In this document: positions 128 through 36,877 of the stretch, one piece after another | Layout: every line of letters starts with the position of its first letter | Position numbering within the stretch: position 1 is the stretch's first letter | Made by a program: the position numbers and the translations under genes | The notes under the pieces: generated by a model | Database searches by the model: none | What the model saw: the letters and a program-made list of their open reading frames with translations, nothing else | Told to the model about the DNA's origin: nothing | Source of the DNA: an uncultured Gammaproteobacteria bacterium | Lineage (GTDB): Bacteria; Pseudomonadota; Gammaproteobacteria; Pseudomonadales; Litorivicinaceae | Direction of reading: 5' to 3' | Assembly (NCBI GenBank): GCA_913057215.1 | Contig: CAJXNQ010000005.1 | Coordinates: 1-64,000, forward strand | DNA length: 64,000 nt

Positions 128-343
128 TTAGTTCAATATTCGCTTTTTGAACCAGACGAAAATGCGGTATTTGTAGTCATTATATTCCTCCTTTATCGCC
201 GTCTCAATATGTAATCCGCATATCTCCCAACCATCTTTTCCTTTTTCGTTGAGTGCGTCTTCTATTTCTTTCGAACTCGGGTTTTCGGGATAGTATGTTT
301 GGCATTTATACTGAAATCCGTCTTTGTATGTTTTTGCATTCAT
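128..343 (-). CDS. small DUF4177-like hypothetical protein
   Basis: A 71-residue soluble protein. The central pattern ALNEKGKDGWEICGLH followed by a C-terminal YRIFVWFKKR strand resembles the DUF4177 family, whose members carry a short helix, a GWE motif and a final F-K-R strand; the function of that family is unknown. Its ATG shares one base with the TAA of the upstream integrase gene (TAATG), so the two are probably cotranscribed and translationally coupled. It shares the AT-rich composition of the element. I infer that it is cargo or an accessory gene of the integrative element; nothing in the sequence points to an excisionase. Confidence 0.7.
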   Translation of the reverse strand: MNAKTYKDGFQYKCQTYYPENPSSKEIEDALNEKGKDGWEICGLHIETAIKEEYNDYKYRIFVWFKKRILN

Positions 344-1674
344 TACTTTTTCCTCTTGCTTTGTAGCATATCAATATTAAGTTCGCCTTCCAATTGGGAG
401 GCGTAATGCCTTTCAATCATTTCAACACTTGTTCGAGCATTCTTTGCAAGCGTTATGTAGTCGATATTTTCGCCTTCTGTCAGTCTAAACATAATGCAGG
501 TGTGGCGTAGAGAGTAAATTGTTCTGTCTTCGTCGTTCGCACCCTGCTTCAAATCTGCGTGCCAAGTCAGCACATCGAATTGTCTCTGTAGTTGTTTAAG
601 TGCGTAGTCTCTTTGTAGGTTTGGGTAGAACAGATAGTCTTCTGCACGAACCATAGGGACTTTTTTCTTCTTCTTCGTCTTCTCGTCTTCAACTTCGATT
701 TGGTATTTTGCTTTATTGTATTCAGTAAGTCGTTCATATACCTCAACTGCCATTTCCATAGTTGCTATTGGTTTGTCTTTCTTCTTGCTGGGTGGCAAGT
801 TAAGGACAAGATAGTTGTGTGTTCCCTTCTTCACTTCTATGTGTTTGTGCTGAAGGTTCTTAATGTCTGTCGGGCGGATAAATGAGGTGGACATAAAGAT
901 AATCAGTTCGTAAAGTTCCCGTTCGATTTTGATTTTTCTTAATAGCCTGCCTTCTGTAGTTTCGCCTTCTTTGAACAGCGTTCTGCCTTTGCTCTCTATA
1001 ACTCGTTCTTCAAATCGTTTGCCAATAAGAGATTTTGCTCGTCTGTGTAGAAGGTTGTATTCCTTGCTGTTGAAGTAGCCTCTGGCTTTGCTTTCAGCCT
1101 TAAATTTTGGAGTGGCTGGGGTGTTATTGATGTATCGCATTTTGTGTGCGTATGCGAGAACACGCTTGGCTAACTTTAGGTATTGAAGTGTTGTGTCTGC
1201 ACTAATTTTCTCGTTTTGCCGTTTAAGGTGATGTAGGAATGTCTGTAGTGTGTCGTAATAAATTGATGCAACCTCAGTTTTGTTGAGATTTTTGAAAACT
1301 GGTTTGTTCAGTCTCAATCGCGCTATTTGTGCAGTAGTCTTCGTAAGTTCGTTTCTTTCAACTTGATTGTCCATTTCGTTGAGCATCTGTAATGCAACTT
1401 TACGGAATGTCATTGTGGTGTTGAGCGATTCGCCATCATAGTCTCTGCGCAATAAGTCGTTGTAAAAGTCTTTGGCGAAGTTGAGTGCGTCTCTTTTGTT
1501 TTCAGTCTTTGTGCTTCGTTTCAGTATCTTTCCGTTCATATAGCATCTTACTTGCCAATACGAACTTGCGTGTGTTTTGAAGATTGTGAGTTTTTTTGGA
1601 TAGTGAGGAACGGCAGTAATAGTGTCTGCTATTGGAGTAGTGCGATGCTTTGTTGTTGCGTTTGATGCTGCCAT
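343..1674 (-). CDS. tyrosine recombinase / phage-type integrase
   Basis: A 443-residue site-specific recombinase that would integrate or excise the element next to it. The N-terminal half (about 25-190) holds an arm-binding and SAM-like core-binding region; the catalytic domain follows. Visible catalytic residues are the first arginine in FIRPTDIKNL (about 267), the Arg-His pair in YSLRHTC (about 390-391) and the nucleophile tyrosine in ERHYAS (about 424). The usual box III histidine is not obvious: the segment reads AKNARTSVEM. I chose the ATG at 1674 over the TTG one codon upstream. The gene lies about 120 bp from the 3' end of tRNA-Arg, the usual place for an integrase beside its attachment site. 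AT-rich codon use differs sharply from the genes to the right. Confidence 0.9.
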   Translation of the reverse strand: MAASNATTKHRTTPIADTITAVPHYPKKLTIFKTHASSYWQVRCYMNGKILKRSTKTENKRDALNFAKDFYNDLLRRDYDGESLNTTMTFRKVALQMLNEMDNQVERNELTKTTAQIARLRLNKPVFKNLNKTEVASIYYDTLQTFLHHLKRQNEKISADTTLQYLKLAKRVLAYAHKMRYINNTPATPKFKAESKARGYFNSKEYNLLHRRAKSLIGKRFEERVIESKGRTLFKEGETTEGRLLRKIKIERELYELIIFMSTSFIRPTDIKNLQHKHIEVKKGTHNYLVLNLPPSKKKDKPIATMEMAVEVYERLTEYNKAKYQIEVEDEKTKKKKKVPMVRAEDYLFYPNLQRDYALKQLQRQFDVLTWHADLKQGANDEDRTIYSLRHTCIMFRLTEGENIDYITLAKNARTSVEMIERHYASQLEGELNIDMLQSKRKK

Positions 1675-1744
1675 CAATCTACATCCGTTTCTAAATCTTC
1701 ATATGCGACAGATACTTACGATTTAGATTAGTGTAGTTTAGAAA

Positions 1745-22532: not shown

Positions 22533-23782
22533 CCGACTCTTATCGTTTGCTCATGGCCGCCTTTGAAGCGGCCGTCGATGCCGCTCGCGCACCCTGTTTG
22601 ATCCCCTATTTGAATGCGCTTCCTGAGGTTCAGGGGCGGCGTCGGTTTTTGTTGGTTGGTAAGGCGGCGGCCAGTCAGGCGGAGGTCCTCGAATCGGTCA
22701 TCGAACAGCCAGAGGGACTCTGTATCCTGCCCAAAGGGCATACGGCGAGGACGTCGTTGAGAGTGATCGAAGCGACACACCCGACCCCAGATGCGGGGAG
22801 CATCGAGGCAGCCACAGCCGCCATGGCACTCGCTGACCAGACCGAAGAAGGTGATCAGTTGGTGTGTCTGATTTCAGGTGGTGGTTCCAGTTTGATGTCG
22901 GCACCACTGCCAGGCATGGATCCCGCGCTCAAACTCGAAGTACATCGCGCGCTGTTAGCATCCGGTGCCAGCATTTCCGAGCTCAATACCGTGCGGAAAC
23001 AATTGTCGCTGGTCAAAGGAGGTCGTTTGGCACAGGCATGCCGCGGCACTTTGATCAATTTGTTGGTGTCCGATGTCCCCAGGGATGAGGTTGAGATGAT
23101 TGCATCCGGGCCGACCGTGCCTGCACACACCACACAAGCAGACGCTTTACATGTTTTAGAGCGCTACGATATTGGCCTTATCAAAGAGCTTGAGCCTTGG
23201 CTGACCGATCCCGCATTTGCCACTCCCAAGCCATCGGATGCATGTTTCGAACGCGTGACAACGCACGTGGTTGCCGCCCCATCTCGATCACTGGAGGCGG
23301 CAGCCAACGTATTGGCCGCCGAAGGCGTCGATTGTTGGATCCTTGGTGACTCGATTGAAGGGCCTTCAGAGATCGTTGCACGGGTCATGGCAGAAACAGC
23401 CCTCTGGCAGAAACGCAAAGGTGCACTGGCTCGGCCCTTATGTTTGTTATCCGGGGGTGAGACGACCGTCCGCGTCACCGGTGACGGAGTGGGCGGCCCG
23501 AATGCGCACTTTGCACTGACCTTATTGGATGCATTGCAGGCCACGCCTGGCATTGCGGCGATGGTGTGTGACACCGATGGCGTCGATGGCGCAGCCGAAA
23601 TCGCCGGAGCCTATGTGGATGAACACACGCTTGAGTCCGCCCGGCAACGTGGACTCAACCCGATCGATGCTTTGGCGCGACAAGATGCGCATACATTTTT
23701 CAGTGCCCTGGATCAGGCTGTTGTCCCCGGTCCGACTGGGACCAACGTCAACGATTTTCGAGCGATTTTGATCACTCCTTAA
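22529..23782 (+). CDS. glycerate 2-kinase (DUF4147/MOFRL family)
   Basis: A 417-residue enzyme phosphorylating D-glycerate to 2-phosphoglycerate, linking glyoxylate, tartrate or hydroxypyruvate breakdown to glycolysis. The N-terminal domain shows VGKAAASQAEV and ISGGGSSLMSAPLPG; the C-terminal MOFRL domain shows LSGGETTVRVTGDGVGGPN and GPTGTNVNDF, the family signature. The start is GTG, overlapping the preceding stop. The related gene names are gckA, ttuD and garK-type; I give none because the upstream pathway is not encoded here. Malate synthase G, another glyoxylate enzyme, lies 5 kb away on the other strand. The gene converges on the AEC carrier with a 4-bp overlap of stops. Confidence 0.9.
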   Translation: MTDSYRLLMAAFEAAVDAARAPCLIPYLNALPEVQGRRRFLLVGKAAASQAEVLESVIEQPEGLCILPKGHTARTSLRVIEATHPTPDAGSIEAATAAMALADQTEEGDQLVCLISGGGSSLMSAPLPGMDPALKLEVHRALLASGASISELNTVRKQLSLVKGGRLAQACRGTLINLLVSDVPRDEVEMIASGPTVPAHTTQADALHVLERYDIGLIKELEPWLTDPAFATPKPSDACFERVTTHVVAAPSRSLEAAANVLAAEGVDCWILGDSIEGPSEIVARVMAETALWQKRKGALARPLCLLSGGETTVRVTGDGVGGPNAHFALTLLDALQATPGIAAMVCDTDGVDGAAEIAGAYVDEHTLESARQRGLNPIDALARQDAHTFFSALDQAVVPGPTGTNVNDFRAILITP

Positions 23783-24714
23783 ACCAGCTTCAATAAGCCA
23801 ATCACGAGAGACAAGGTGGCAATCCCACTGACTGTCGAGATCAAGATGCTGGTGGTGGCTGTAGGCGGTGACACATCATACCGGCTCGCAAATAAATACA
23901 TATTGACGCCTGTTGGCATGGCCGCGAGCAGTACAGCCACCGATAACCAGAGTGGTTCAAGGCCAAGCGTGTAGCCAACACCGAATACCAGGAGTGGTTG
24001 CAGCAGGTTTTTAAGCACGCTGACCAAGATCGCCGGCGCAATCGATCCTGAGAGTCGGTATCCCGCCAACGAACTGCCCAACACAAAAAGAGCGGCCGGT
24101 GTGACACTGGTGGATACGAGATCAAACATGTCTTCGGCCAGTGGATGTAAACCAAGCCCCGTGAGTTTCCAAAGAAATCCTGCTGCTAGCCCCACAATCA
24201 ACGGATTAGCCAATAGGCCACGGATAACTTGTTGCGGTAACTCAGACAGGCTTGCATTTCGACCACGTGCGATTTCGATCGCCACCGTGACGGCGGTGAA
24301 TACCGTGATCCCGTGCACTGAAATAATCAGAAATAACGGGAACAAGGCCTCATTTCCAAGTGCTCTCGGTATGAGTGGAATGCCGAGTAATACAGTGTTT
24401 GAGAAACAGGCTCCAAGTCCGATCACCATCGACTCCACCAGTGATCGGTTGAGTGCCCACCATGCAATGGCAAGGCCGACGATAAAAATAACAACCAATG
24501 GCAAGTAATAGCTGATAAAGAGCGCGCTGGTTGAGGCTTTGGGTGGCTCGAGTTGGACGACTGCGGAGAACAGGAGCATGGGGACTGCAAAGTCGAATAC
24601 ATACTTTGCCAGTCCATCACGATGCGTCGACTGAAAGTGCCCAAGCCGCGTGGCAAAGTAGCCAATCAGACCCAATGCCAAGATCGGTGCGAGGACTTGG
24701 AAAATATCAGCCAT
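23779..24714 (-). CDS. AEC-family membrane transporter under TPP riboswitch control
   Basis: A 311-residue carrier of the auxin-efflux-carrier (AEC/BART) superfamily, with about ten transmembrane helices in two halves. The first segments (ILALGLIGYFATRLG and YVFDFAVPMLLFSAV) and the family-typical NPLIVGLAAGFLWKLTG, with ANP-type turn, are clear. AEC proteins move organic acids or other small anions by ion coupling. Its start lies 8 bp inside the ThiY-like gene, so it is translated from the mRNA headed by the TPP riboswitch. That makes it a candidate carrier for thiamine or a pyrimidine/thiazole precursor, which is inference from context only. No ABC permease or ATPase gene is present in this window. 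Confidence 0.87.
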   Translation of the reverse strand: MADIFQVLAPILALGLIGYFATRLGHFQSTHRDGLAKYVFDFAVPMLLFSAVVQLEPPKASTSALFISYYLPLVVIFIVGLAIAWWALNRSLVESMVIGLGACFSNTVLLGIPLIPRALGNEALFPLFLIISVHGITVFTAVTVAIEIARGRNASLSELPQQVIRGLLANPLIVGLAAGFLWKLTGLGLHPLAEDMFDLVSTSVTPAALFVLGSSLAGYRLSGSIAPAILVSVLKNLLQPLLVFGVGYTLGLEPLWLSVAVLLAAMPTGVNMYLFASRYDVSPPTATTSILISTVSGIATLSLVIGLLKLV

Positions 24715-25681
24715 CTGGGTGTTGCCAGAGATAGGTCGAGACTGGTGAGACGTCCGAAATCAGTCCACGTCTCTGCATGAATTCTGCAAACTCGATCCAG
24801 GCATCTGAGTCGCTTGCCCGGACATCTCGGGTGAGTTTTGGCAAGGTGTCTCTCCAAGCGCGGGCGTTGAGTGGGGTATCAAGGTCTTGGGGGTTATAGG
24901 CAACAAAATCACGCCAACCAGCCTCTGGATCTTCGAGGATCTCCGCCGTCACTGTATTGAGTATGTCCAGCACATCCTGCATGGCTGGATGTGCGGCCTT
25001 ATCAGGATGCGCCACAAGCACCAGTTCTTCATAGGTTGGAACGCCGTGGCGTTCTGGAAAAAACGCCCGCCCGGGGCGTTGATCAAGATCCATTTGATTG
25101 AGCTCAAAATTTCGAAACGCGCCGATGACCGCATCGACTTGCCCTGTATAGAGCGAGGGTGACAACGCAAAATTTACATTCACCAAGGAGACGTCTTCCA
25201 GTGTGAGACCGTGATGCTCAAGCATGGCCCCTAAAATTGCATCCTCAAATCCACCGACTGAGTATCCGACAGTTTTGCCTTTTAAATCGGAAATGGATTG
25301 GATGGGTCCGTCTGCAAGCACCACCAGTGAGTTCAGTGGTGTATCCACCAGTGAGCCCATGCGGACCAATGGCAATTCGTTATTTAAATCCACCATCAAA
25401 GAGGGTTGGTAGCTGACTGCGAGATCAGCCTGTTTAGCGGCTGCCAGTTTTGGTGGCATCGAGGGATCACCCGGTTCGATGAGTTGGACGTTGAGTCCCT
25501 TCTCTTTAAATAGACCGCGCTGCTGAGCGACGATCAAGGCCGCATGATCTGGGTTTACAAACCAATCGAGCAGGATAACAAACTCCCGTGCGACGGCTTG
25601 AGTGGGTATCCACACAGATCCGCATAACAGGAGAGTCATGAAGCATTTCGCCCAGCGGCGATCGATACAATATGAAGTCAT
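24707..25681 (-). CDS. ThiY-like (NMT1/THI5) substrate-binding protein
   Basis: A 324-residue periplasmic binding protein. After a signal peptide (to about residue 32, TQAVA-R) comes the NMT1/THI5 fold: FVILLDWFVNPDHAALIVAQQRGLFKEKG is very close to the ThiY opening, followed by DLAVSYQPSL, VLADGPIQSISDLKGKTVGYSVGGFE and VGAF-type hinge segments. ThiY proteins bind formylaminopyrimidine or related thiamine pyrimidine precursors for the ThiXYZ ABC importer. The TPP riboswitch upstream confirms a thiamine role. Here the usual thiX and thiZ are missing and an AEC carrier gene follows. The start at 25681 has GAGG eight bases upstream, hidden in a hairpin. Confidence 0.9.
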   Translation of the reverse strand: MTSYCIDRRWAKCFMTLLLCGSVWIPTQAVAREFVILLDWFVNPDHAALIVAQQRGLFKEKGLNVQLIEPGDPSMPPKLAAAKQADLAVSYQPSLMVDLNNELPLVRMGSLVDTPLNSLVVLADGPIQSISDLKGKTVGYSVGGFEDAILGAMLEHHGLTLEDVSLVNVNFALSPSLYTGQVDAVIGAFRNFELNQMDLDQRPGRAFFPERHGVPTYEELVLVAHPDKAAHPAMQDVLDILNTVTAEILEDPEAGWRDFVAYNPQDLDTPLNARAWRDTLPKLTRDVRASDSDAWIEFAEFMQRRGLISDVSPVSTYLWQHPDG

Positions 25682-25720: not shown

Positions 25721-25745
25721 AATCGTTTGAAATAGATTGATTCAA

Positions 25746-25812
25746 GGCTCCCTACGCCGGTGCTAACCGGATCAGGTTCAAAGGGTACTTCTCAGCGATT
25801 GCGCCCCTGCCA
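25746..25812 (-). promoter_or_regulatory. TPP riboswitch (THI element)
   Basis: On the minus strand the conserved aptamer parts appear in order: AGGGGCGC, GCTGAGA, GTACCC, TGAACCTGATCCGG, TTAGCACCGGCG and TAGGGA, with a P1 stem GGC/GCC closing the element. The P3 arm is minimal (AATC between GGGGCGC and GCTGAGA). It lies 65 bp before the ThiY-like start and controls that gene and the AEC carrier according to thiamine pyrophosphate. Confidence 0.95.
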
Positions 25813-25846
25813 CGTGGGCGTAGCATACCCGATCCGGTCGCATGCG

Positions 25847-26952: not shown

Positions 26953-29124
26953 TTAATGTGTTTGGGAGGCTTTGAGCTCCAAACGACGGCGGTGCAATAC
27001 CGGTTCAGTGTATCCATTGGGTTGTTCGACCCCTTTGAGCACTAAATCAAGCGCTGCCTGGAAGGCCACTGACTGATCGAAGTTTGGTGCCATGGGCTGA
27101 TACGCCGGATCTCCCGCGTTTTGATCGTCCACAACCGATGCCATCCGCTGCATGGTCTCCAGAACCTGTGCCTCATTGGTGATGCCGTGCACTAGCCAAT
27201 TGGCTATGTGTTGTGAGCTGATCCGAAGTGTGGCGCGATCTTCCATGAGCCCCACATTATTAATGTCTGGAACTTTGGAGCACCCAACGCCTTGATCCAC
27301 CCAGCGAACAACATAGCCGAGGATGCCTTGGGCATTGTTGTCGAGTTCAGCCTGAATCTCCTCAGCTGTCCAGTGTGGATCTGAGGCGACCGGGATGGTC
27401 AGGATGTCATCGACCTGGTTTCTGCGTTGGCCTTTCAGCGCATCTTGGCGCTGAAACACATCCACCTGGTGATAGTGCATGGCGTGGAGTGTTGCGGCGG
27501 TCGGTGAGGGGACCCAGGCGGTATTCGCACCTGCGTTGGGATGCCCAATTTTTTGTTCGAGCATGGCGGCCATGAGATCTGGCATCGCCCACATGCCCTT
27601 GCCGATTTGCGCGCGGCCCTGTAGCCCGCACTCGAGACCGATATCGACGTTCCAGTTCTCATAGGCGGTAATCCAGGTTGATTGTTTCATATCACCTTTG
27701 CGGATCATGGGGCCTGCGTACATGGAGGTATGCATTTCATCCCCAGTGCGATCTAAGAATCCGGTGTTGATGAAGACCACACGCTCAGAGGCCGCATTGA
27801 TGCATGCTTTCAGGTTCACCGTGGTGCGACGTTCCTCATCCATAATGCCCATTTTCAGTGTGAAACGATCGAGGCCGAGCAGGTCCTCAACCTGAGCAAA
27901 CAGACGATTTGAGAAGGCCACTTCTTCAGGACCGTGCATCTTGGGTTTGACGATGTAGACGCTGCCTGCACGTGAGTTTTTGTTTTCGGCTCGTTTGAGA
28001 TCATGCATTGCAATCATGGACGTGAAAATCGCGTCCATGATGCCTTCAGGCACTTCGTGGCCGTCTTGATCGAGGATCGCTGGATTGGTCATCAAGTGAC
28101 CGACGTTTCGAACGAACATCAGCGCGCGACCGGGCACCGTCACTTGGTCTCCATCGAGTCCTTGGTAATGCCGATCTGGATTCAGTGTCCGAGTGAAGGA
28201 TCGAGATCCTTTGCTGACGGTTTCTGACAAGTCGCCCCGCATGAGACCGAGCCAGTTTCGATACACCAGCACTTTATCTTCCGCATCAACGGCGGCGACA
28301 GAATCTTCACAATCCATAATGGTTGTCAGTGCCGACTCCATCAAAACATCTTTCACGCCGGCTGCGTCGGAACTGCCAATCTCAGAATCCCGATCAATTT
28401 GGATCTCAAAGTGCAGACCATTGTGAATGAACAAAATCGCCGTCGGTGCATTGGCCTCACCAAGGAAACCAACACACTGCGCGGGATCTTTCAGGGTGGT
28501 TGTTTGGCCGTTGTATTCACACACCAGGTTTCCTGACTCGATGCGATAGGCAACAACGTCGGCGTGGCTGCCAGTCACCAAGGGCGCAGCCTCATCTAAA
28601 AACGCTTTAGCGCGCGCGATGACGCGACCACCACGAACTGGATTGTAGCTGGTACCCGCTTCAGCACCACCTTCACTTGAGATTGCGTCGGTGCCATAGA
28701 GTGCGTTGTACAAGCTGCCCCATCGCGCATTGGCAGCATTCAGTGCATAGCGTGCATTCATGACAGGAACAACAAGTTGTGGCCCGGCAGTCGTCGCCAC
28801 CTCTGGATCAACGTGCGCTGTGTCGACTTGCACGTTTTGAGGCTCCGGCAGTAAATAGCCGATGTCTTCTAAAAATGCCTTATAAGCTTGCGCATCATGG
28901 GGTTGGCCTGCATGCGCTTTGTGATACGTATCGATCTTTTCTTGCAGTGCGTCTCGCTTGGCAAGGAGATCACGATTGATGGGTGCGAGATCATGAATGA
29001 GCGTATCCACACCAGACCAAAATGCATTGGGGTCGAGTCCGGTGCCAGGGAGTGCGTGTTCGTTGATGAATTGATACAGCTCAGTAGCCACCTGTAGGCC
29101 GCCGCATTGCGTCCGGTCAGTCAT
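26953..29124 (-). CDS. glcB: malate synthase G
   Basis: A 723-residue enzyme condensing glyoxylate with acetyl-CoA to malate, the last step of the glyoxylate shunt and of glycolate use. Typical marks are [77 protein letters not shown] and [19 protein letters not shown]. The length is right for the single-chain G isoform. I set the start at the ATG at 29124, since GGAGAAG lies eight bases upstream; the upstream TTG alternative would overlap that site. The acetyl-CoA and metal-site residues are present. It follows the amphi-Trp gene by 86 bp on the same strand but is functionally unrelated to that cassette. Confidence 0.96.
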
Positions 29125-29210
29125 GCAAATCTTCTCCAAAATACATCTATGAATGTGGTTATCTTAGCATTTGAGCGCGGCCCGTTCAAAAAATGAAAAC
29201 TCATTCCATT

Positions 29211-29489
29211 TTATGATTTGCCAGTCTGAATGGTTAATGAGCCCTGATCGGCCTGTTCCACCTCACTGTCCCACGACAGTTTTATTTCGAGGCGGTGCCG
29301 GCTGTCGTCTTCTGAAGCCACAATTTTGAGATTGATCAAACCATTGGGCTTGAGTGTGATCTCGCCGCCGTCATCTGCGAAGGTCAGCTCACCCGAGGCC
29401 AGTCCCTTCGTAATCGCCTTGAGGTACCGTTGGATGCTTTTTCGGTCTTCCAGGCTGTCGTGTCGAAACCGATTTTTATGCTCAAGCAT
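29211..29489 (-). CDS. amphi-Trp domain protein (GAK-locus member)
   Basis: A 92-residue soluble protein of the amphi-Trp type, recognised by the opening FRHDSLEDRKSIQRYLKAITKGLASGELTF, followed by GGEITLKPNGLINLKIVAS and a final amphipathic strand RHRLEIKLSWDSE. The function of the family is unknown; it is found in bacteria and haloarchaea and, as I recall from TIGRFAM descriptions, often near GAK-system genes. Here it is the last gene of the leftward cassette, 8 bp after the metallophosphoesterase. Being small, non-enzymatic and acidic at the C-terminus, it is a candidate substrate or carrier for the kinases and ATP-grasp enzyme upstream, which is inference. Confidence 0.82.
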   Translation of the reverse strand: MLEHKNRFRHDSLEDRKSIQRYLKAITKGLASGELTFADDGGEITLKPNGLINLKIVASEDDSRHRLEIKLSWDSEVEQADQGSLTIQTGKS

Positions 29490-29497
29490 GTGCGTCC

Positions 29498-30793
29498 TTA
29501 ATTTGCAGGTGTGAAGACTTTCTGGCGCGGGTAGTCACGACTCACTCCGATGACGCGACCGCTTGGACAAATCTGGGTAAAACCGAGCCCAATGCCCTCA
29601 AGTCCCTCTTTACGCCGTGAATTCCGATCGAGCGTGATATCACCTTCGATGTGCAACAACCCCTGTTTGACGATGATTCGCTGTCCCTCGGTGCGATTCA
29701 AGTGCCCGTGCACAACAGCGAAGATTCCAAGCCGATGTATTCGGCGGACGCCCTTTGGCGTGAGTGGGAGATCGACCGGACGGTATTTCGTACGCATCAC
29801 ATTGGCGACGGTGCCGTAATAAAATTCAAAGAGGTCTTTTTTCAGCTGTGATTTATACAGTCGATTCAGCGCTCGGACTCCTTTGCGTTTCAAAATGTGT
29901 GTCACAGAGTCATCAAGCCCTGCATGGAGAAACAAAAATGAGCCCTGTTTCGCGGCCAGTGTCATCTCCTTAAAAAACCAGCCATAGTCACCCTTGGGCT
30001 TCAAAAAGAGTTTTTGCAGCACTTTGGCTGTCACATATACGTCCTGCAGAGTCATGCCGTACTCGAGGCACTCGGCCTCGAATGTTTTGATTTTTTTTCC
30101 CATGCGTTCGAGTTCGCGGGCAATCGCCTCAGGAGGCATGCGCCCCTCAACCGCCTGAGGGAATCGATAAAACCAATCATCGCGTGGATACAGCGCGCGT
30201 CGACACGCATCAAGCGAAGGGCAGTTTTTTGGACGTGGGTTGGGTGCGACGTATCGTGTGAAAACCTCTGCGATTAAGGGCACCACCTTTTTGCCCATGC
30301 GGACAAACAAATGCTCAGTCAGAACGCTTCTTTGGCCCTCAAGCGCACGCAAGCCCATCAGTAAGCGCATGTCATGATTGCCAGCAATGAGCGTGACTTT
30401 GGCACCGGCTCGATAGAGGGCCCGAATACTCTCGAGGAGTCGTAGATTGCTTGGCCCCTTGTCGAGGCAATCTCCTCCGATGACAAAATGAGCACGTTGT
30501 CCGAGGCGCGTTAACTTGATCTTGTCATGCTGTTTCGGCGGTTTGATCCCACCGGTGGCCAGTAGACTTGCAAGGAAGGCCTCTGCATCGGCGTGCGGGT
30601 CGGACAAAAAAAAGATCGGTTTTTTAGGCCACTTCCATCCTGATTTCTGTGTGGTCTGTTTGAGATGCTCTTTCACCATCCGGTGCGAAGCCTTATGGGA
30701 CCCGGAATGATGTGAGTGCAACTGCCAGCGCTCTTGGCCCACAGGCAGTGTTTGCACTGCAGGTGACAGTGTTTGAAGGGCAATCTCAGTCAC
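29498..30793 (-). CDS. metallophosphoesterase (calcineurin-like) of the GAK cassette
   Basis: A 431-residue protein with all dimetal phosphoesterase motifs: SDPHAD (64-69), GGDCLDKG (107-114), GNHD (138-141), FLHAGLDD and VHGHLN near the C-terminus. Between GNHD and the histidine motifs there is a long helical insertion (about 150-280), longer than in simple PPP phosphatases. The first 55 residues are basic and probably flexible. The motif GDxxDKG and the fold suggest a fructose-bisphosphatase- or PPP-like enzyme acting on a phosphorylated small molecule or protein. It overlaps the histidine phosphatase gene by 8 bp, so it is made from the same mRNA as the kinases. The substrate is unknown. 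Confidence 0.85.
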   Translation of the reverse strand: MTEIALQTLSPAVQTLPVGQERWQLHSHHSGSHKASHRMVKEHLKQTTQKSGWKWPKKPIFFLSDPHADAEAFLASLLATGGIKPPKQHDKIKLTRLGQRAHFVIGGDCLDKGPSNLRLLESIRALYRAGAKVTLIAGNHDMRLLMGLRALEGQRSVLTEHLFVRMGKKVVPLIAEVFTRYVAPNPRPKNCPSLDACRRALYPRDDWFYRFPQAVEGRMPPEAIARELERMGKKIKTFEAECLEYGMTLQDVYVTAKVLQKLFLKPKGDYGWFFKEMTLAAKQGSFLFLHAGLDDSVTHILKRKGVRALNRLYKSQLKKDLFEFYYGTVANVMRTKYRPVDLPLTPKGVRRIHRLGIFAVVHGHLNRTEGQRIIVKQGLLHIEGDITLDRNSRRKEGLEGIGLGFTQICPSGRVIGVSRDYPRQKVFTPAN

Positions 30794-31478
30794 AGGGCGA
30801 ATCCATCAATTCCATCTCCGATGCCCGTACTTTCCATGCTCCGGCAACAACTGTCCAGACACCCGAGGGTGCGCACTGCAAGCACACGGGTTTCGCGTGA
30901 AACATACTCAAGCGTTGAATCTCATCAAATTCCAGAACACCCAACTGATAGGCCGCATGGCGAAAGGCGGCTCCATGACCAATGACCGGAACCAGTGTAT
31001 TGGCGGCAAACATTCGGTTGAGAGACTTCAATCGTCCAGCCACGCGACGGCCTGCATCCATCAATGACTCAGCCCCAGGTAATGGCAGTCGAAACGTACT
31101 ATTGGACTTCCAGTCTGAAGGCCAGGCAGACACGCGTGGATCAGCCTCCAAAACCGACTGAATCTGGGTGATCGATAAATTATTGGCTGACCCTAGGTTG
31201 CGTTCAGAGAGGTCCTCAAAGGCCTTTAAGTTGGCGGGTACGGGCCAGTGTTGCGACACAATCTGTCCGGTTTGATGCGCCCTTAACAGAGTCGAGGTGA
31301 TGATCTGATCGGCAGGCGTCCATTGATAGGCATCCATCAGCTCTTGCAGTTCGCCAGCCAGTGCTCTGGCTTGGCTCTCGCCTGCTGAGGTCAGTGGCCA
31401 GGGCTGCTGGGCACTTGGTGTATCGGACGCCTGGTGGTATTCACCGTGGCGAATCAATGCCAAGACTGCACCGCTCAT
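30786..31478 (-). CDS. histidine-phosphatase-family protein of the GAK cassette
   Basis: A 230-residue phosphoglycerate-mutase-like phosphatase. The catalytic RHGE is at 10-13 (the histidine accepts the phosphate), the second arginine is in STLLRAHQTG, the acid in DLSERNLG, and the second histidine in VIGHGAAFRH. The fold is complete. The family dephosphorylates sugars, nucleotides, cobalamin intermediates or proteins (SixA type); the loop after ERNLG lacks a known specificity signature. Its start overlaps the HprK-like kinase gene by 4 bp (ATGA), so kinase and phosphatase are coupled. It may remove the phosphate placed by that kinase, a guess from position. Confidence 0.87.
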   Translation of the reverse strand: MSGAVLALIRHGEYHQASDTPSAQQPWPLTSAGESQARALAGELQELMDAYQWTPADQIITSTLLRAHQTGQIVSQHWPVPANLKAFEDLSERNLGSANNLSITQIQSVLEADPRVSAWPSDWKSNSTFRLPLPGAESLMDAGRRVAGRLKSLNRMFAANTLVPVIGHGAAFRHAAYQLGVLEFDEIQRLSMFHAKPVCLQCAPSGVWTVVAGAWKVRASEMELMDSPCD

Positions 31479-32560
31479 GATGCGCCCTTCAGATGCTGTA
31501 TCGCGAACGCGGATGCCTGTTCAAAATCCACACGACCTGTCACTTCAAAGATGGGTGTTGACCCTAAGGTCCTGAGATATTCATCTGGATCGACAGACGT
31601 ATCTGCGGCGCGTGGCCTACCCTCGGGTGAGATATACAGTGGCCCTGATGATTTCATCAATGCGTCAAGAAGGCCTTGATGTGTTTTGAGGTTGACGGCT
31701 TCAATGTGCGTGGGTTCAACACTGTCGCGATCCCAATTGAGAATCATCACCCCACTCAGTGCTCCGTTCAGCTGAATCCTGTGTTTGCCATAGGCAGCGT
31801 CGATATCCACATCATATTTTTCTTCCAACTCCCACAGTGCCTCGGTTGGCATGGCGGCCAGCTCAGCCTGCCGATCGGCTGGCAGCAGGGAGCGGAGGGC
31901 CGGATTATGCAGAAGCGTTCCTGGATTGACGCGTGGGAGTTTGGGGACTCCGGCGGCAATGACCTGTTCTCCCTGTTGTTTGATGAGTAATCGATCATTG
32001 GTGAGGAAGTCCATATCAGGGTCGTGAAGGCACTGAAGCATCAAGGTGGATTTCCCTCCACCAGACAACGCTGCAAATGCCATCGTACGTCCCTGATAAT
32101 GACAGCCCGCTGCATGACAGATCAGAAAATCACGATGCTCAAGCGCGTTCATATAACAGATATTGACGAAGTTGATGACCTGATTGGGGTTGGCCAGACA
32201 GGGCCCAATTGCCATCTTCCGGTCGTTTGTTTGATACAAAATCAGTCCGGTTTTGACTTTGCGAACAATCCGCCCCTGTTCGAGGTCAATATAAGCCTCT
32301 TTCCGTCCTGTTTTGCCAGGCTCTCGGGGCCAGTCTTGCCAGTTCAAATCGTCCAGGACAGGCGCGCAATCGACGGCTTCGATGGTCACATGCGGAGGAT
32401 GGTCCTCGAAACTGACAAGCGATTGAAAATAGCTGCGGAGCGTTTCGATGAGTGCATCGGAATTACTGGTCACCCGACAACGAAAGCCATCGAGGCATAA
32501 GGTCAGTTTCGCGGGCTGTGCGACCGCCTCAACGCCTGCTTGTTCAAGCACATGATTCAT
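31475..32560 (-). CDS. HprK-related kinase (GAK system, type B-like)
   Basis: A 361-residue relative of HPr kinase/phosphorylase. The P-loop is LSGGGKST at 165-172, preceded by CHAAGCHYQGRTMAF and followed by DFLTNDR and PKLPRVNPGTLL, the order seen in the HprK catalytic core. The N-terminal 130 residues are specific to this subfamily. HprK phosphorylates a serine of HPr; HprK-related proteins are found with amphi-Trp, ATP-grasp and CofD-like genes and their target is unknown. Its start and stop overlap its neighbours by 4 bp each. No HPr/PTS gene is near, so the target is probably not HPr. Confidence 0.87.
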   Translation of the reverse strand: MNHVLEQAGVEAVAQPAKLTLCLDGFRCRVTSNSDALIETLRSYFQSLVSFEDHPPHVTIEAVDCAPVLDDLNWQDWPREPGKTGRKEAYIDLEQGRIVRKVKTGLILYQTNDRKMAIGPCLANPNQVINFVNICYMNALEHRDFLICHAAGCHYQGRTMAFAALSGGGKSTLMLQCLHDPDMDFLTNDRLLIKQQGEQVIAAGVPKLPRVNPGTLLHNPALRSLLPADRQAELAAMPTEALWELEEKYDVDIDAAYGKHRIQLNGALSGVMILNWDRDSVEPTHIEAVNLKTHQGLLDALMKSSGPLYISPEGRPRAADTSVDPDEYLRTLGSTPIFEVTGRVDFEQASAFAIQHLKGAS

Positions 32561-33444
32561 GCGAGCTGCTCGAGTGCATAGTTGACATACGCGCGCGCTG
32601 CATCAACGCCTGCGCCCTCAAGTGCGCCCTTAAAACCGCCGAAAGCTGACACTTCAAAGCAAATGGCGCCTGCGTCGGTTTCTGCAACATCGACTGTTGT
32701 GAAATCCATGTTAAACAGACTCTGGGCTTTTGAGGCCATGGCAATGATGTCCTCTGAGGGTGTTGCCAGTTCATATTTTCCACCGGAGTGAATGGTTGTA
32801 TTCCAAGCATCGGTTTGTGCGACCCGCGCATACGCACCGAGGTATTGTCCACCAAGAAACACAAGACCCAGGTCGCGGCCTGAGAGCGTCAACTTTTTTT
32901 GCAAATAGATCACAGGGTGAGTGCTTTGGAAGTTCGCAAGTTGGGCACGAATGGTCTCGCGCGACGCCTCGGCTGACACCAATGTCATGCCACGGGCTTT
33001 GGTTGAAAATAAGGGTTTGAGTACGGCCTCACCAAATCGCTCAACTGCGTCTGTGGCCGCATCAAGATCTTCGGTGACGACCGTATCGGGCATGGGAATG
33101 TGGTGGTTTCGAAGTGTCACTGTGCAACTGAGTCGATCGATCAATCGGAGCATGGAATTGGCCGGACTGAACACCCGAACACCCAGTGCTTCAGCCACAC
33201 GGAGCAGTTCCAGTCGATCGAGGGTGGCTGGGCTGTAGTCTTCGCTGATCTTTTTGACCAACAGTCCGTCATGTGCTGTGAGATCAACATCGCCGGCGAT
33301 CAGGCGGTTGTTCACACCATCAAACACCACCTGCGTCATATCGATGACTTGCCGATAACCGGTGGCCTCTTCAACGCGATCCGCCAAGACTTCGGTTGAC
33401 CATTTGCCTGGGATCCCGATGACCCCGATGCGCGGTTTATTCAT
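32557..33444 (-). CDS. ATP-grasp family ligase of the GAK system
   Basis: A 295-residue RimK-like ATP-grasp protein. The N-terminal domain (1-100) opens with IGVIGIPGKWSTEVLADRV. ATP-binding residues follow: VLKPLFSTKARGM (lysine at about 143), SGRDLGLVFLGG, NTTIHSGGKYE, and the metal-site segment DVAETDAGAICFEVSAFGGFKG. ATP-grasp enzymes join a carboxylate, activated as acyl-phosphate, to an amine or thiol. In the GAK set this gene is a defining member, with CofD-like and HprK-like partners. It overlaps the PhoU-APH gene by 8 bp and the kinase gene by 4 bp. The acid and amine substrates are unknown. Confidence 0.88.
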   Translation of the reverse strand: MNKPRIGVIGIPGKWSTEVLADRVEEATGYRQVIDMTQVVFDGVNNRLIAGDVDLTAHDGLLVKKISEDYSPATLDRLELLRVAEALGVRVFSPANSMLRLIDRLSCTVTLRNHHIPMPDTVVTEDLDAATDAVERFGEAVLKPLFSTKARGMTLVSAEASRETIRAQLANFQSTHPVIYLQKKLTLSGRDLGLVFLGGQYLGAYARVAQTDAWNTTIHSGGKYELATPSEDIIAMASKAQSLFNMDFTTVDVAETDAGAICFEVSAFGGFKGALEGAGVDAARAYVNYALEQLA

Positions 33445-35080
33445 TGAGTAAATCCTTCAGTGGTAATCGGAATCGTGCCTCCTGGCCTGCGGGCACGTAT
33501 TGAATCCGCTCTAATATAAACCGGGCGCGTAAAAGCATCCGGCGGGACAGGGTGGGGTCGAGAATAAACCGGGTGGAGGTGATCAGCGACCGTGCCAAGC
33601 CGAGAGCGAGTCGAAATTCAAAGGTTGTGTCCTTTTCTCGACGTGCGAAGCGTTTCGCGAAATTGGCCATGTCGATCGCGAGCCTGAGGATACGCGCACG
33701 CTCAGGGCCCTCAAGGATCTGCAGCCGATAACAAGACACCATCATCACTGAGATATCTTGCACGTAGTCCATATATCGCGAGCGGTGCAGGTCAATGAAA
33801 TTAATCCGGTTTTCCTGTGCGTCAAATAAAATATTATCAAGATTGAAGTCGCCATGGATGTAGACGGAAAAAGGCGAAGCGACTTCGCGCTGTTTTGCCT
33901 GCGAGATCAGTGTACGTAATCCAGGAGCGACTGCTCCGCAGACCACTCTGTCAGGCCACTCAAAGTCAGGGTGCAGGGTCAAGATGTCAGGTAAGCGTTT
34001 TTCCAATTGCGCCATGTAGTGGGCATGTGCGGGTTGCGCCTCTCGCGTCTCGCGCCAAACACTGCGGAGTGTCTGAGTCAGACGTTTGAGTGCTCGTTCA
34101 AGCAACGCCTCAGATTCGTGGAGAAGAATGTGTTCGAACGTTAGCCCATTTAAGTGTTCAATCAATAATGCAGCCGAGTCACCGCGCTTTTTATAGGACA
34201 ACACTTTCGGCGCCAAGCCTGGATAGATCTCATGCCAGGCCTCAAATCCTTCCCGCTCCTCCTTGAGCTTTTTCTTTTCACCGTCTTTGAATATGGCGGA
34301 GACTTCGTTGGATCCCGCCGTTTTGATGGCGGAAATTCCACTGCCGGATCGTGTTTCGGCAATGGTCTGAATTTCAATCTCTTGTCCGTCTGTTTCAAGG
34401 TCATGACTGACGGCTTCGAGAGAATAAAAGCGCTCAAAATTGATGGCCTGGCCGAGCGTTGCAGACAACAAAGATTCGCTGATTCGATACAGCGCTCGGC
34501 CGATTTGCGCACATGCATGTCCGGTGAGTAAGACTGCCGCGAAATCACGTGCGACACTGCGTCGGACTTGACGGATGCAGTCAGCTTCGACTTTCTGATG
34601 GCGTTTTTCGATTTTTTCTGACACCCGACTGAGGGCAATTGCAGCGCGCGTTTCCTTGGTTTCGAGGCTTTCTTTGATCTGTTGCAAACCCAGTGTGATC
34701 AGTTTGAAAATCGACTTAAACGGCCTTTCATCCAGATGTTTCCGCTCCTCGATTGATTCCACATGCTCAACGACAGTACGTGCCAGTTCATTGATGCGGT
34801 CGAGATCCTGAGCCACTGATTCAAAGGCTTGTAAGCGAATGCGTTTGGTGGTCGAGCCCTTGGCTTTTTGGCTCGTCCAACAGCTGTTTTGAATCCGTAC
34901 TTTGAGATTGTAACTGTAGCCTGCGCGGTCAAGGATCCGCCGACCTGCAGAGGCATCTTGATCAACGAGGTAGCGCTTAAGGGATCCGATTTGAGACTCG
35001 GTTTCACCAAGTAGGAACGTCAGATTTTCTTGGACCGATTTAGGTAAGCGATACATCGGCCTGTCCCATTGGATGGTCAT
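33437..35080 (-). CDS. PhoU-like domain fused to APH-type kinase
   Basis: A 547-residue protein in two parts. Residues 1-220 are nearly all helical and resemble the PhoU three-helix bundle (long charged helices such as SVAQDLDRINELARTVVEHVE, with the E-x-D-x-x-R-I pattern). Residues about 240-470 form an aminoglycoside-phosphotransferase/choline-kinase-like domain: FKDGEKKKLKEEREGF, LLIEHLNG, the catalytic loop YIHGDFNLDNILFD (about 407-420) and metal-site FIDLHRSRYMDYVQDIS. It should therefore phosphorylate a small molecule, with PhoU perhaps sensing metal or phosphate. It is the first gene of the leftward cassette; the start at 35080 has only a weak ribosome site, and a second ATG at 35056 is possible. 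Confidence 0.83.
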   Translation of the reverse strand: MTIQWDRPMYRLPKSVQENLTFLLGETESQIGSLKRYLVDQDASAGRRILDRAGYSYNLKVRIQNSCWTSQKAKGSTTKRIRLQAFESVAQDLDRINELARTVVEHVESIEERKHLDERPFKSIFKLITLGLQQIKESLETKETRAAIALSRVSEKIEKRHQKVEADCIRQVRRSVARDFAAVLLTGHACAQIGRALYRISESLLSATLGQAINFERFYSLEAVSHDLETDGQEIEIQTIAETRSGSGISAIKTAGSNEVSAIFKDGEKKKLKEEREGFEAWHEIYPGLAPKVLSYKKRGDSAALLIEHLNGLTFEHILLHESEALLERALKRLTQTLRSVWRETREAQPAHAHYMAQLEKRLPDILTLHPDFEWPDRVVCGAVAPGLRTLISQAKQREVASPFSVYIHGDFNLDNILFDAQENRINFIDLHRSRYMDYVQDISVMMVSCYRLQILEGPERARILRLAIDMANFAKRFARREKDTTFEFRLALGLARSLITSTRFILDPTLSRRMLLRARFILERIQYVPAGQEARFRLPLKDLLNE

Positions 35081-35249
35081 CAGTGTCTTGTATTGTTTGG
35101 GTCGTGGTGGCGCCGTGCATCAGGGTCCTTTGTATGCAGTCAGTCATGTGTCTTCCGTGGCCAGGCGCAGTGTGCCAAAAAAACAGGCACAATTGTGCGG
35201 TCATTTGGGTATGTTGCGCACTCAATGCATTATTGAGAGGAATTGTTCG
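35081..35249. promoter_or_regulatory. divergent control region of the GAK cassette
   Basis: 169 bp between the PhoU-APH gene (leftward) and the CofD-like gene (rightward). Both promoters must be here if the leftward genes form one operon. I see no clean inverted repeat or consensus promoter pair; TTGTAT at 35092 and TATGCA at 35134 are not well spaced. Confidence 0.4.
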
Positions 35250-36410
35250 ATGGATCGTCAATTGATCGCCCGATTACAACGGGCGCCTGAGCTCGGTCCC
35301 GAGATGGTGATTTTTTCCGGTGGCACTGCGTTTAATGATACGGCTCGCCGATTAAAACACCTCACACACCACACCACGCATTTGCTGACGCCCTTTGACT
35401 CCGGCGGGTCATCTGCTTCGCTGCGTAAGGCCTTTAACATGCCAGCTGTTGGTGATCTGCGATCACGCCTCATGGCGCTGGCTGATGAGACCTTGAGCGG
35501 CCATCAGGCGGTCGTGAAACTGTTTCAGGCACGGATTCCAAAGACCATTGATGCGCCTGTATTAGAGATCTTGATGCGAGGCTTGACCGGTGGTTCAGAC
35601 CGACTCTTGACGCAGATTGAAGAGCCAATTGCCAGCATGGTGATGCGATTATTGCATCGGTTTTTTGAATCGGCGCCGGCTGACTTTGATTACCGAGGCG
35701 CGAGCCTTGGCAATTTGGTGCTTACTGGTGCCTATCTCGATCATCATTGTCGAATGGATCCGACTGCCTCATTGTTCTCGCGTTTGGTCAAGGCACGCGG
35801 CACAGCACGTCTCTCAGTGGAAACCAATCTTCATTTGGGTGCCGTACTCGAGAACGGTGAGACTGTCATTGGACAACACCACATGACTGGCAAGGAGGCC
35901 GCCCCGCTGGTCTCTCCAATTCGTGAAATCTTCATCAATCGAGGATTGGAGCGCGTGTCGAAAACCCGCGTGGTGGCGAGACAAAAAGTGCGGCAAGCAA
36001 TCCGCAACAGTGAGCTGGTGGTGTTTGCCCAGGGCAGCTTTTACACCAGTTTAGCGGCGAATCTGTTACCTGCGGGTGTTGGGAGCACGATTGCAGAATC
36101 GTCTTCACCAAAGGTCTGGATCCCCAACCTTGGCGAAGACCCAGAGCAGTTGGGGATGACCGTGGAGGCTGCACTGCGAACGCTTGTTGCGACAATTCAG
36201 CGCGACCAACCGCATGCTGACCCACGCGACTGCGTGACACATGTCTTATTTGATCGGTCGAGTACGTATCGTGGGGGAATCCCCGAAGTATTGCTCGCTC
36301 ATTGGGGGATTCAACCCGTTGCAGCCGCTCTTGTAGGGACTGAGTCCACTCGGTACTGTCCAGATCGGTTGAGTGCAATGCTCTGTTTGCTTGCGCTCGA
36401 GATGCGCTAG
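35250..36410 (+). CDS. CofD/YvcK-like protein of the GAK system
   Basis: A 386-residue protein of the CofD (2-phospho-L-lactate transferase)/YvcK fold. Signs are IFSGGTAFND (21-30), FDSGGSSASLR, AVGDLRSRLMALAD, YRGASLGNLVLTGAYLD and VFAQGSFYTSLAANLLPAGV, which run parallel to the YvcK/CofD nucleotide-binding loops. CofD transfers a phospholactyl group in F420 synthesis; YvcK binds UDP-sugars. This branch is found with the ATP-grasp and HprK-related kinase, and its reaction is unknown. The start at 35250 has a GAGAGGA ribosome site; longer frames begin before the divergent promoter region. It is transcribed away from the other GAK genes across a 169-bp gap, and ends at a strong terminator. Confidence 0.86.
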   Translation: MDRQLIARLQRAPELGPEMVIFSGGTAFNDTARRLKHLTHHTTHLLTPFDSGGSSASLRKAFNMPAVGDLRSRLMALADETLSGHQAVVKLFQARIPKTIDAPVLEILMRGLTGGSDRLLTQIEEPIASMVMRLLHRFFESAPADFDYRGASLGNLVLTGAYLDHHCRMDPTASLFSRLVKARGTARLSVETNLHLGAVLENGETVIGQHHMTGKEAAPLVSPIREIFINRGLERVSKTRVVARQKVRQAIRNSELVVFAQGSFYTSLAANLLPAGVGSTIAESSSPKVWIPNLGEDPEQLGMTVEAALRTLVATIQRDQPHADPRDCVTHVLFDRSSTYRGGIPEVLLAHWGIQPVAAALVGTESTRYCPDRLSAMLCLLALEMR

Positions 36411-36443
36411 TTGGTTCGAGTGCGAAACCCAAGATTTGTCAAA

Positions 36444-36480
36444 CCTCACTAAGCTGATCTTAGTGAGGCTTTTCGTTTTT
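36444..36480 (+). terminator. rho-independent terminator after the CofD-like gene
   Basis: CCTCACTAAG (36444-36453) and CTTAGTGAGG (36459-36468) form a perfect 10-bp stem with a 5-base loop, followed by CTTTTCGTTTTT. It ends the CofD-like transcript; read leftward it may also serve to end tmRNA precursor transcripts. Confidence 0.92.
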
Positions 36481-36839
36481 GGTGGAGACGGCGGGATTTG
36501 AACCCGCGTCCGTCAGTCCGCTACCAAACGCTCTACATGCTTAGTCGCGTTTTTTGATTTAAGTCAGGGTTTCCCAACGCACAGGGATTCCCGTTCCGAG
36601 TTCAGTTTAAAATTTAGCTTCTCAACCCTGAACACAGCGTTGAAGCGAGTCTCTGTTTTGAACCCTGTTAGCAAGGACCAGAGACGATCCCCACTCAGGG
36701 CCTAGCTTATGCTGCTAGTGCGTAGTTTTCGTCGTTGGCAGTTATAGCTAACGAGCCCACAGTTGGGTTTACGAACACTGTAGAACTGCTCGGCATGCAC
36801 ATTTGGCTTTGTAACCGGCGTCGAATCCATATCGTCCCC
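36480..36839 (-). ncRNA. ssrA: transfer-messenger RNA (tmRNA)
   Basis: On the minus strand the 5' end GGGGACGATATGGATTCGACGCCGG (as in other tmRNAs) starts at 36839. The 3' end (CGTCTCC-A-CCA) at 36480 completes the acceptor stem with one G-U pair, and the T-arm GCGGGTTCAAATCCCGC is present. The tag reading frame is at 36707-36739 (resume codon GCC at 36737-36739), giving ANDENYALAA and stop TAA, identical to the E. coli tag. tmRNA rescues stalled ribosomes together with SmpB, encoded about 630 bp upstream on the same strand. Confidence 0.97.
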
Positions 36840-36848
36840 GAACCGCAT

Positions 36849-36877
36849 ATTATCCGCCGAGATCACGGGGTGTTCAA
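36849..36877 (-). promoter_or_regulatory. candidate sigma-70 promoter for ssrA
   Basis: On the minus strand TTGAAC (36872-36877), a 17-bp spacer and GATAAT (36849-36854) lie just upstream of the tmRNA 5' end at 36839. The -35 element overlaps the last codons of the LysE-type gene. Confidence 0.6.

Follow-up and report, generated by a model that had tools for sequence, protein, structure and literature searches.

What does the GAK system do, a set of proteins named by NCBI without a function? The question is raised by a cassette at positions 29211–36410 of the window, the term used here for the whole stretch of DNA analysed (64,000 nucleotides, positions 1 to 64,000 of contig CAJXNQ010000005.1, from an uncultured Gammaproteobacteria bacterium of the Litorivicinaceae). 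Seven open reading frames, all free of internal stops, occupy this segment. Six lie on the reverse strand and are headed by a fusion of a PhoU domain with an aminoglycoside-phosphotransferase (APH)-type kinase (PhoU-APH; 33437–35080). This is followed by a GAK ATP-grasp ligase resembling RimK, LysX and MptN (32557–33444), the HprK-related kinase B, a P-loop kinase of the HprK/PEPCK fold (HprK_B; 31475–32560), a branch 1 histidine phosphatase similar to alpha-ribazole phosphatase (HisP; 30786–31478), a calcineurin-like metallophosphoesterase with a GTG start, whose nearest solved relative is ApaH (MPPE; 29498–30793), and an amphi-Trp protein of 92 residues (29211–29489). The seventh gene encodes a GAK CofD-like protein of the YvcK branch and is divergently oriented (35250–36410, forward strand).

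The window copy is a further member of this named but uncharacterised system. Searches with the NCBIfam profiles exceeded the curated cut-offs throughout, with 76 bits for amphi-Trp (TIGR04354; cut-off 31), 334.9 bits for HprK_rel_B (TIGR04355; cut-off 200), 426.2 bits for grasp_GAK (TIGR04356; cut-off 300) and 411.3 bits for CofD_rel_GAK (TIGR04357; cut-off 340). Metallophos (PF00149), His_Phos_1 (PF00300; 74.7 bits), APH and PhoU were each above the Pfam cut-off. The GAK identity and the seven families, which had been proposed from the letters of the DNA alone (the sequence-only reading), are thus confirmed. The same holds for the junctions it had described, the coordinates agreeing exactly: PhoU-APH overlaps ATP-grasp by 8 bp, ATP-grasp overlaps HprK and HprK overlaps HisP by 4 bp each, HisP overlaps MPPE by 8 bp, and MPPE and amphi-Trp are 8 bp apart. 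Similar overlaps recur in relatives (medians of −8 for PhoU-APH/ATP-grasp and −4 for ATP-grasp/HprK), and the proposal that the leftward genes form one operon is supported. Its statement that neither substrate nor product has been established also stands, as the open literature search gave no function for GAK, and 5.39 million open-access texts contained nothing relevant on GAK, amphi-Trp or the HprK-related kinase.

Conservation of the cassette is well beyond chance, because its order repeats in 59 flanked loci and on independently annotated plasmids. Among 398 evenly sampled Pseudomonadota genomes, grasp_GAK was above cut-off in 13, and HprK_rel_B accompanied it in 13/13, so that the co-occurrence cited by the sequence-only reading is borne out. 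CofD_GAK was present in 5/13. In a 14th genome with HprK_rel_B, the gene lies at a contig edge and is followed by a SixA-NUDIX fusion, HisP and MPPE. A scan of 84,980 species returned at least 491 related stretches, of which 80 loci were kept, giving 92 unique loci together with those found earlier; the best-matching ones belong mostly to Gamma- and Alphaproteobacteria, many of them marine. Core composition was counted in the 59 loci with enough flank. PhoU-APH and ATP-grasp were present in all 59 (100%), HprK in 58 (98%), MPPE in 57 (97%), HisP in 56 (95%) and amphi-Trp in 55 (93%), and the six core genes were always on the same strand. NUDIX directly precedes PhoU-APH in 33 of these loci (56%), SixA-NUDIX lies between HprK and HisP in 30 (51%), and CofD, found in 46%, is divergent in 26 of 27 cases.

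The window therefore holds the six-gene core plus CofD, without NUDIX and SixA-NUDIX, and the description of its cassette as complete had to be given up, since about half of the relatives carry these two genes as well. They do not seem to have been relocated: family searches of the own genome gave 8 NUDIX matches with no clear relative among them, the best match to the cassette NUDIX reaching E 1.7e-4 across 49 residues. The XXXCH protein (TIGR04358), which we take to be linked to the GAK set by NCBI naming, was not used as defining. Its best score in the own genome was 13.8 bits against a cut-off of 40 and none of 15 other GAK genomes had a match above cut-off; hence, XXXCH is outside the set in this lineage. 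The system described here matches all four NCBI models and has the gene order that NCBI annotates on Rhodobacterales plasmids, but differs from the NCBI definition in that CofD is optional and in that PhoU-APH, HisP, MPPE, NUDIX and SixA-NUDIX, unnamed as members by the NCBI models, belong to it. Two departures from the common layout were seen. A Methylomonas metagenome-assembled genome (L146) has PhoU-APH and ATP-grasp only, the other core genes being gone, which represents either decay of the cassette or a minimal pair. In three rearranged cassettes (L088, L090, L079), the space between MPPE and HprK holds a third NUDIX, of ~190 residues, together with an endonuclease/exonuclease/phosphatase protein.

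The start of the CofD-like gene required correction. The open reading frame had been called from 35073; the TIGR04357 match, however, begins only at residue 75, and relatives are ~395–400 residues long. The likely start is therefore the ATG at 35250 (residue 60 of the longer frame), with AGAGGA just upstream. This leaves ~170 bp between the divergent CofD-like and PhoU-APH genes, and the segment 35081–35249, non-coding after the correction, is the presumed divergent promoter and regulatory region.

As to function, the sequence-only reading had inferred a full modification cycle acting on a small molecule or on the amphi-Trp protein. We propose that the mobile GAK operon carries out a cycle of reversible phosphorylation and ligation in the service of phosphate or polyphosphate homeostasis, a reading to which we assign a probability of roughly 45%. 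It is based on the fixed core, the invariant catalytic residues of five enzymes, the PhoU domain, the NUDIX and SixA-NUDIX genes in half of the relatives, an excess of phosphate genes nearby and the modular gain and loss of parts. What is added to the earlier proposal is a corrected list of parts and a phosphate and polyphosphate context, and the six-gene core, its optional parts and the phosphate lead make the system testable. If the reading is right, bacterial phosphate regulation would gain a further layer, possibly along with a novel phosphoanhydride metabolite, on a cassette that is mobile.

Invariant residues were H409, D411, N416 and D430 in the APH kinase (85 homologues), K143, K149, D252 and E264 in ATP-grasp (92 homologues), the Walker A motif GGGKST and N188-D189-R190 in HprK_B (81 homologues), R10, H11, R66, E92 and H168 in HisP (79 homologues), and D65, H67, D108, N139, H140, H290 and H364 in MPPE (72 homologues), the latter matching ApaH (2dfj) at E 1e-3. 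The PhoU domain occupies about residues 1–220 at the N-terminus of the first kinase. Judged by its profile matches it is genuine: residues 1–220 found the Pseudomonas PhoU structure 4q25 at E 2.5e-8, and TIGR02135 (phoU_full) was matched in 15/20 PhoU-APH members. We suppose that this domain would gate the APH-type kinase by phosphate status and that the APH-type and the HprK/PEPCK-fold kinases would phosphorylate one shared substrate, which the RimK-type enzyme may then link to an amino group, unless it uses the acyl-phosphate otherwise. HisP and the ApaH-like phosphoesterase, elsewhere joined by NUDIX and SixA-NUDIX, would hydrolyse the product, so that the erasing side would comprise two to four phosphohydrolases depending on the locus. 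The amphi-Trp protein may carry or bind the product, or be the regulated target, and the YvcK-like protein would be an optional regulator, perhaps a sensor of nucleotide sugars.

The phosphate context was assessed against 60 control regions, each ~18 kb long, drawn from genomes that carry GAK and from a close relative (G226), i.e. few genomes with no one-to-one matching. Clustering of neighbours showed that CHAD proteins, ParA-like ATPases, Na/Pi symporter-PhoU fusions and CYTH proteins recur beside the cassette. CHAD and the Na/Pi symporter-PhoU fusion were each found near 9/92 loci and PPK1 near 3/92, against 0/60 control regions in all three cases; any scored phosphate gene was found near 17/92 loci against 1/60 (Fisher p 9e-4). 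CHAD-bearing loci are scattered over several separate tree branches. One locus (L141) reads TIGR00153 PhoU-like protein, PPK1, PPX, SixA, CofD, NUDIX, GAK. CofD copies without or away from a cassette adjoin a Na/Pi symporter (G226, L162) or ugpB, ugpC and a glycerophosphodiesterase (G370, L163), and the latter layout is likewise found, by sequence, in G354 (L164). Direct repeats resembling Pho boxes were found upstream of 12/85 operons, compared with 10/202 of the other genes in the loci of these operons (p 0.01), and the own genome encodes PPK1. These associations have precedents. PPN2 is a metallophosphoesterase. CHAD binds polyphosphate, while NUDIX (Ddp1) and PPN2 are polyphosphatases (PMC6537752), and ppk, SixA and ppx are carried on marine phosphate islands (PMC10734472). 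A Streptomyces operon of ppk, pptA (CHAD) and NUDIX belongs to the Pho regulon (PMC8003754); it resembles the present case in its polyphosphate context, its NUDIX gene and its Pho control, the counterpart here being the Pho-box-like repeats in a subset, but has no ATP-grasp, HprK-like, PhoU-APH or amphi-Trp gene, and CHAD and PPK are only occasional neighbours of GAK.

Several observations weigh against a role in phosphate homeostasis. No scored phosphate gene lies near 75/92 loci, the window among them, and plasmid copies lie among unrelated genes. The Pho-box signal is weak, with p 0.07 under a stricter threshold, and the best Pho-box-like match in the window promoter (35081–35249) is 10/14 and not significant. 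A family search revealed no CHAD in the own genome, and CHAD is not enriched genome-wide in GAK carriers (6/13, versus about half of all 398 genomes). The control regions, moreover, come from an unmatched handful of genomes.

Two further features of the neighbourhoods were noted. At nine loci (L126, L132, L138, L141, L147, L063, L065, L085, L123) a CHAD protein occurs near GAK together with a ParA-like ATPase; such a pair might position polyphosphate granules. A CNNM/CorC-type transporter lies near 10/92 loci (L088, L090, L092, L095, L097, L100, L108, L126, L138, L147) against 1/60 controls (p 0.03) and is perhaps related to the balance of magnesium or polyamines for polyphosphate.

The joint occurrence of the hydrolase folds of HisP, ApaH-like, NUDIX and SixA proteins suggests that the product bears a phosphoanhydride. 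A bolder form of the proposed cycle, which we regard as speculative and improbable as it stands, would have GAK make and degrade a new bacterial phosphoanhydride messenger or store. The PhoU-gated kinase, the PEPCK/HprK-fold kinase and ATP-grasp would produce a small molecule or protein in pyrophosphorylated form, amphi-Trp would be its receptor or carrier, and HisP, the ApaH-like enzyme and NUDIX would erase it, reporting phosphate status across marine Proteobacteria. An analogy exists in the inositol-pyrophosphate metabolism of eukaryotes (PPIP5K, DIPP), where ATP-grasp, histidine phosphatase and NUDIX proteins likewise meet in phosphate homeostasis, the kinase domain of PPIP5K having the ATP-grasp fold. 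PPIP5K has both kinase and phosphatase domains (PMC11836120). The GAK ATP-grasp, however, is nearest to RimK/LysX ligases instead of inositol kinases, and inositol phosphates are without evidence here.

A different output is conceivable if the HprK-like kinase, the APH kinase or the ligase modifies amphi-Trp as HprK modifies HPr or Crh, with the phosphatases reversing the modification; the cassette would then exert carbon or cell-wall control and not act on phosphate. We hold this to be possible, if rather doubtful. The AlphaFold model of HprK_B (predicted local distance difference test, pLDDT, 94) gave a Foldseek probability of 1.00 to both PEPCK and HprK/P, and a PDB search by sequence, which had matched merely the Walker A motifs of ABC transporters, is superseded by this result. 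Because the fold matches both, HprK_B, as modelled, may take either a protein or a small molecule. The model matches PEPCK along its length, however, and the query-normalised template modelling (TM) score is better to the small-molecule PEPCKs than to HprK. Amphi-Trp itself, conserved as given above, is roughly the size of HPr and Crh; F8 is invariant and H10, S12, P48 and W73 are each found in 67/69 homologues, the near-invariant H10 and S12 counting for this reading. Yet the sister loci L058 and L059, both still with HprK, have Ala in place of S12, and the amphi-Trp model (pLDDT 87; one helix and four strands) has no recognisable relation to HPr, having found no fold match in the PDB, the HPr fold included. 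A coupling of phosphatase loss to the loss of the acceptor Ser was also considered and is unsupported.

The genomic parallel for such a control system is found in Bacillus, in which YvcI is a NUDIX protein and Crh a small substrate of HprK. The CofD-like protein is YvcK-like, and together with NUDIX recalls the Bacillus operon, whose order is yvcI-yvcJ-glmR(yvcK)-yvcL-crh-yvcN (PMC6171935). The likeness thus extends to a YvcK-family protein, NUDIX and a small HprK substrate, but RapZ/YvcJ, WhiA/YvcL and the HPr-fold protein of that operon are missing from GAK, which adds kinases, a ligase and phosphatases. The cassette itself holds no HPr-like partner whose Ser46 an HPr kinase/phosphorylase would modify, and among the genes that recur nearby neither a PTS (phosphotransferase system) gene nor one for HPr was seen.

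It is unlikely, in our view, that the set instead makes a small cofactor-like molecule with a tail as in F420 or methanopterin, for which the CofD-like protein would join a phospho-acid, the MptN/RimK-like ligase add glutamate and the phosphatases trim precursors. ATP-grasp matches RimK/LysX structures at E 3e-18 and MptN, the tetrahydromethanopterin glutamate ligase, with 135 bits, the CofD superfamily is represented, and HisP is closest to alpha-ribazole phosphatase. ATP-grasp, however, reached no equivalog cut-off for a RimK/MptN glutamate ligase. The Lys, Asp and Glu residues of the ATP site are kept, whereas the substrate motif is altered: S266, in 92/92 homologues, takes the place of the metal-ligand Asn in the RimK/LysX ExN motif, and NxxRGG is replaced by TxxSGG or variants, with Thr for Asn and Ser, His or Asp for Arg. 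Amino-acid ligation, because of these replacements, is plausible from the alignment but not assured. The CofD-like protein also speaks against this scheme. All its PDB profile matches were to YvcK/UPF0052 structures (best E 6e-33), which places it nearer to YvcK than to a true CofD (2-phospho-L-lactate transferase), and it scored 110 bits with the NCBIfam YvcK model, no CofD equivalog being listed. Of the earlier assignment as a CofD/YvcK-like transferase the family is upheld by TIGR04357, but the transferase role is not, as the YvcK branch is without shown transferase activity and 8/13 GAK genomes lack CofD_GAK. In Bacillus, YvcK/GlmR binds UDP-sugars and has a regulatory role (PMC6171935). 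Furthermore, no CofC-like gene was noticed among the recurrent neighbours, and several hydrolases and a PhoU domain would be unexpected in such a pathway.

Finally, a stress or defence cassette directed against phages or damaged nucleotides by nucleotide-cleaving hydrolases would fit the patchy, mobile, plasmid-borne distribution and the NUDIX and ApaH-like hydrolases typical of nucleotide sanitation, but is very improbable. The clustering of recurrent neighbours, made without PADLOC, showed no defence genes, and the core is strongly kept over two proteobacterial classes and symbiont genomes, which suggests a housekeeping-like metabolic role.

The GAK operon is mobile and self-contained. It is found in 3/22 genomes of the genus in the sample of relatives, and on plasmids of Tritonibacter, Pseudooceanicola and Qingshengfaniella, where NCBI itself annotates the genes as GAK. 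In the ATP-grasp tree the alphaproteobacterial copies of Roseibium are nested among gammaproteobacterial ones. All four copies from Litoricola fall together on a single branch (support 100/99), which is compatible, as far as the tree goes, with a single arrival in the genus. The insertion site, which is chromosomal, reads ssrA-hopJ-phnA-glcB in cassette-free Litoricola genomes, ssrA end, hopJ, cassette, phnA and glcB in a cassette-bearing relative (L072), and ssrA-cassette-glcB in the window, where hopJ and phnA (YjdM) were not found in the interval between ssrA and glcB. A foreign base composition was ruled out, the G+C content of the cassette (51–55%) being similar to that of its flanks.

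The ssrA/glcB interval (window 36410–36874 and 26953–29211) is thus a variable site in Litoricola, with hopJ and phnA in relatives and GAK here. On the CofD side, a terminator-like hairpin (36444–36468, forward strand) with a 10-bp stem and a T-rich tail lies 3′ of CofD and before the 3′ end of ssrA, the tmRNA gene (36480–36839, reverse strand; ARAGORN and Rfam), which borders the insertion site and is outside the system. Farther away, a 444-residue protein without Pfam or NCBIfam match (343–1677, reverse strand) adjoins a tRNA-Arg gene (1796–1872) and is a possible divergent integrase. A thiamine pyrophosphate (TPP) riboswitch (25732–25818, reverse strand) lies upstream of a predicted substrate-binding protein (24707–25681; weak SsuA-like match) and a membrane protein (23779–24714), which probably form an operon for the uptake of a thiamine precursor.

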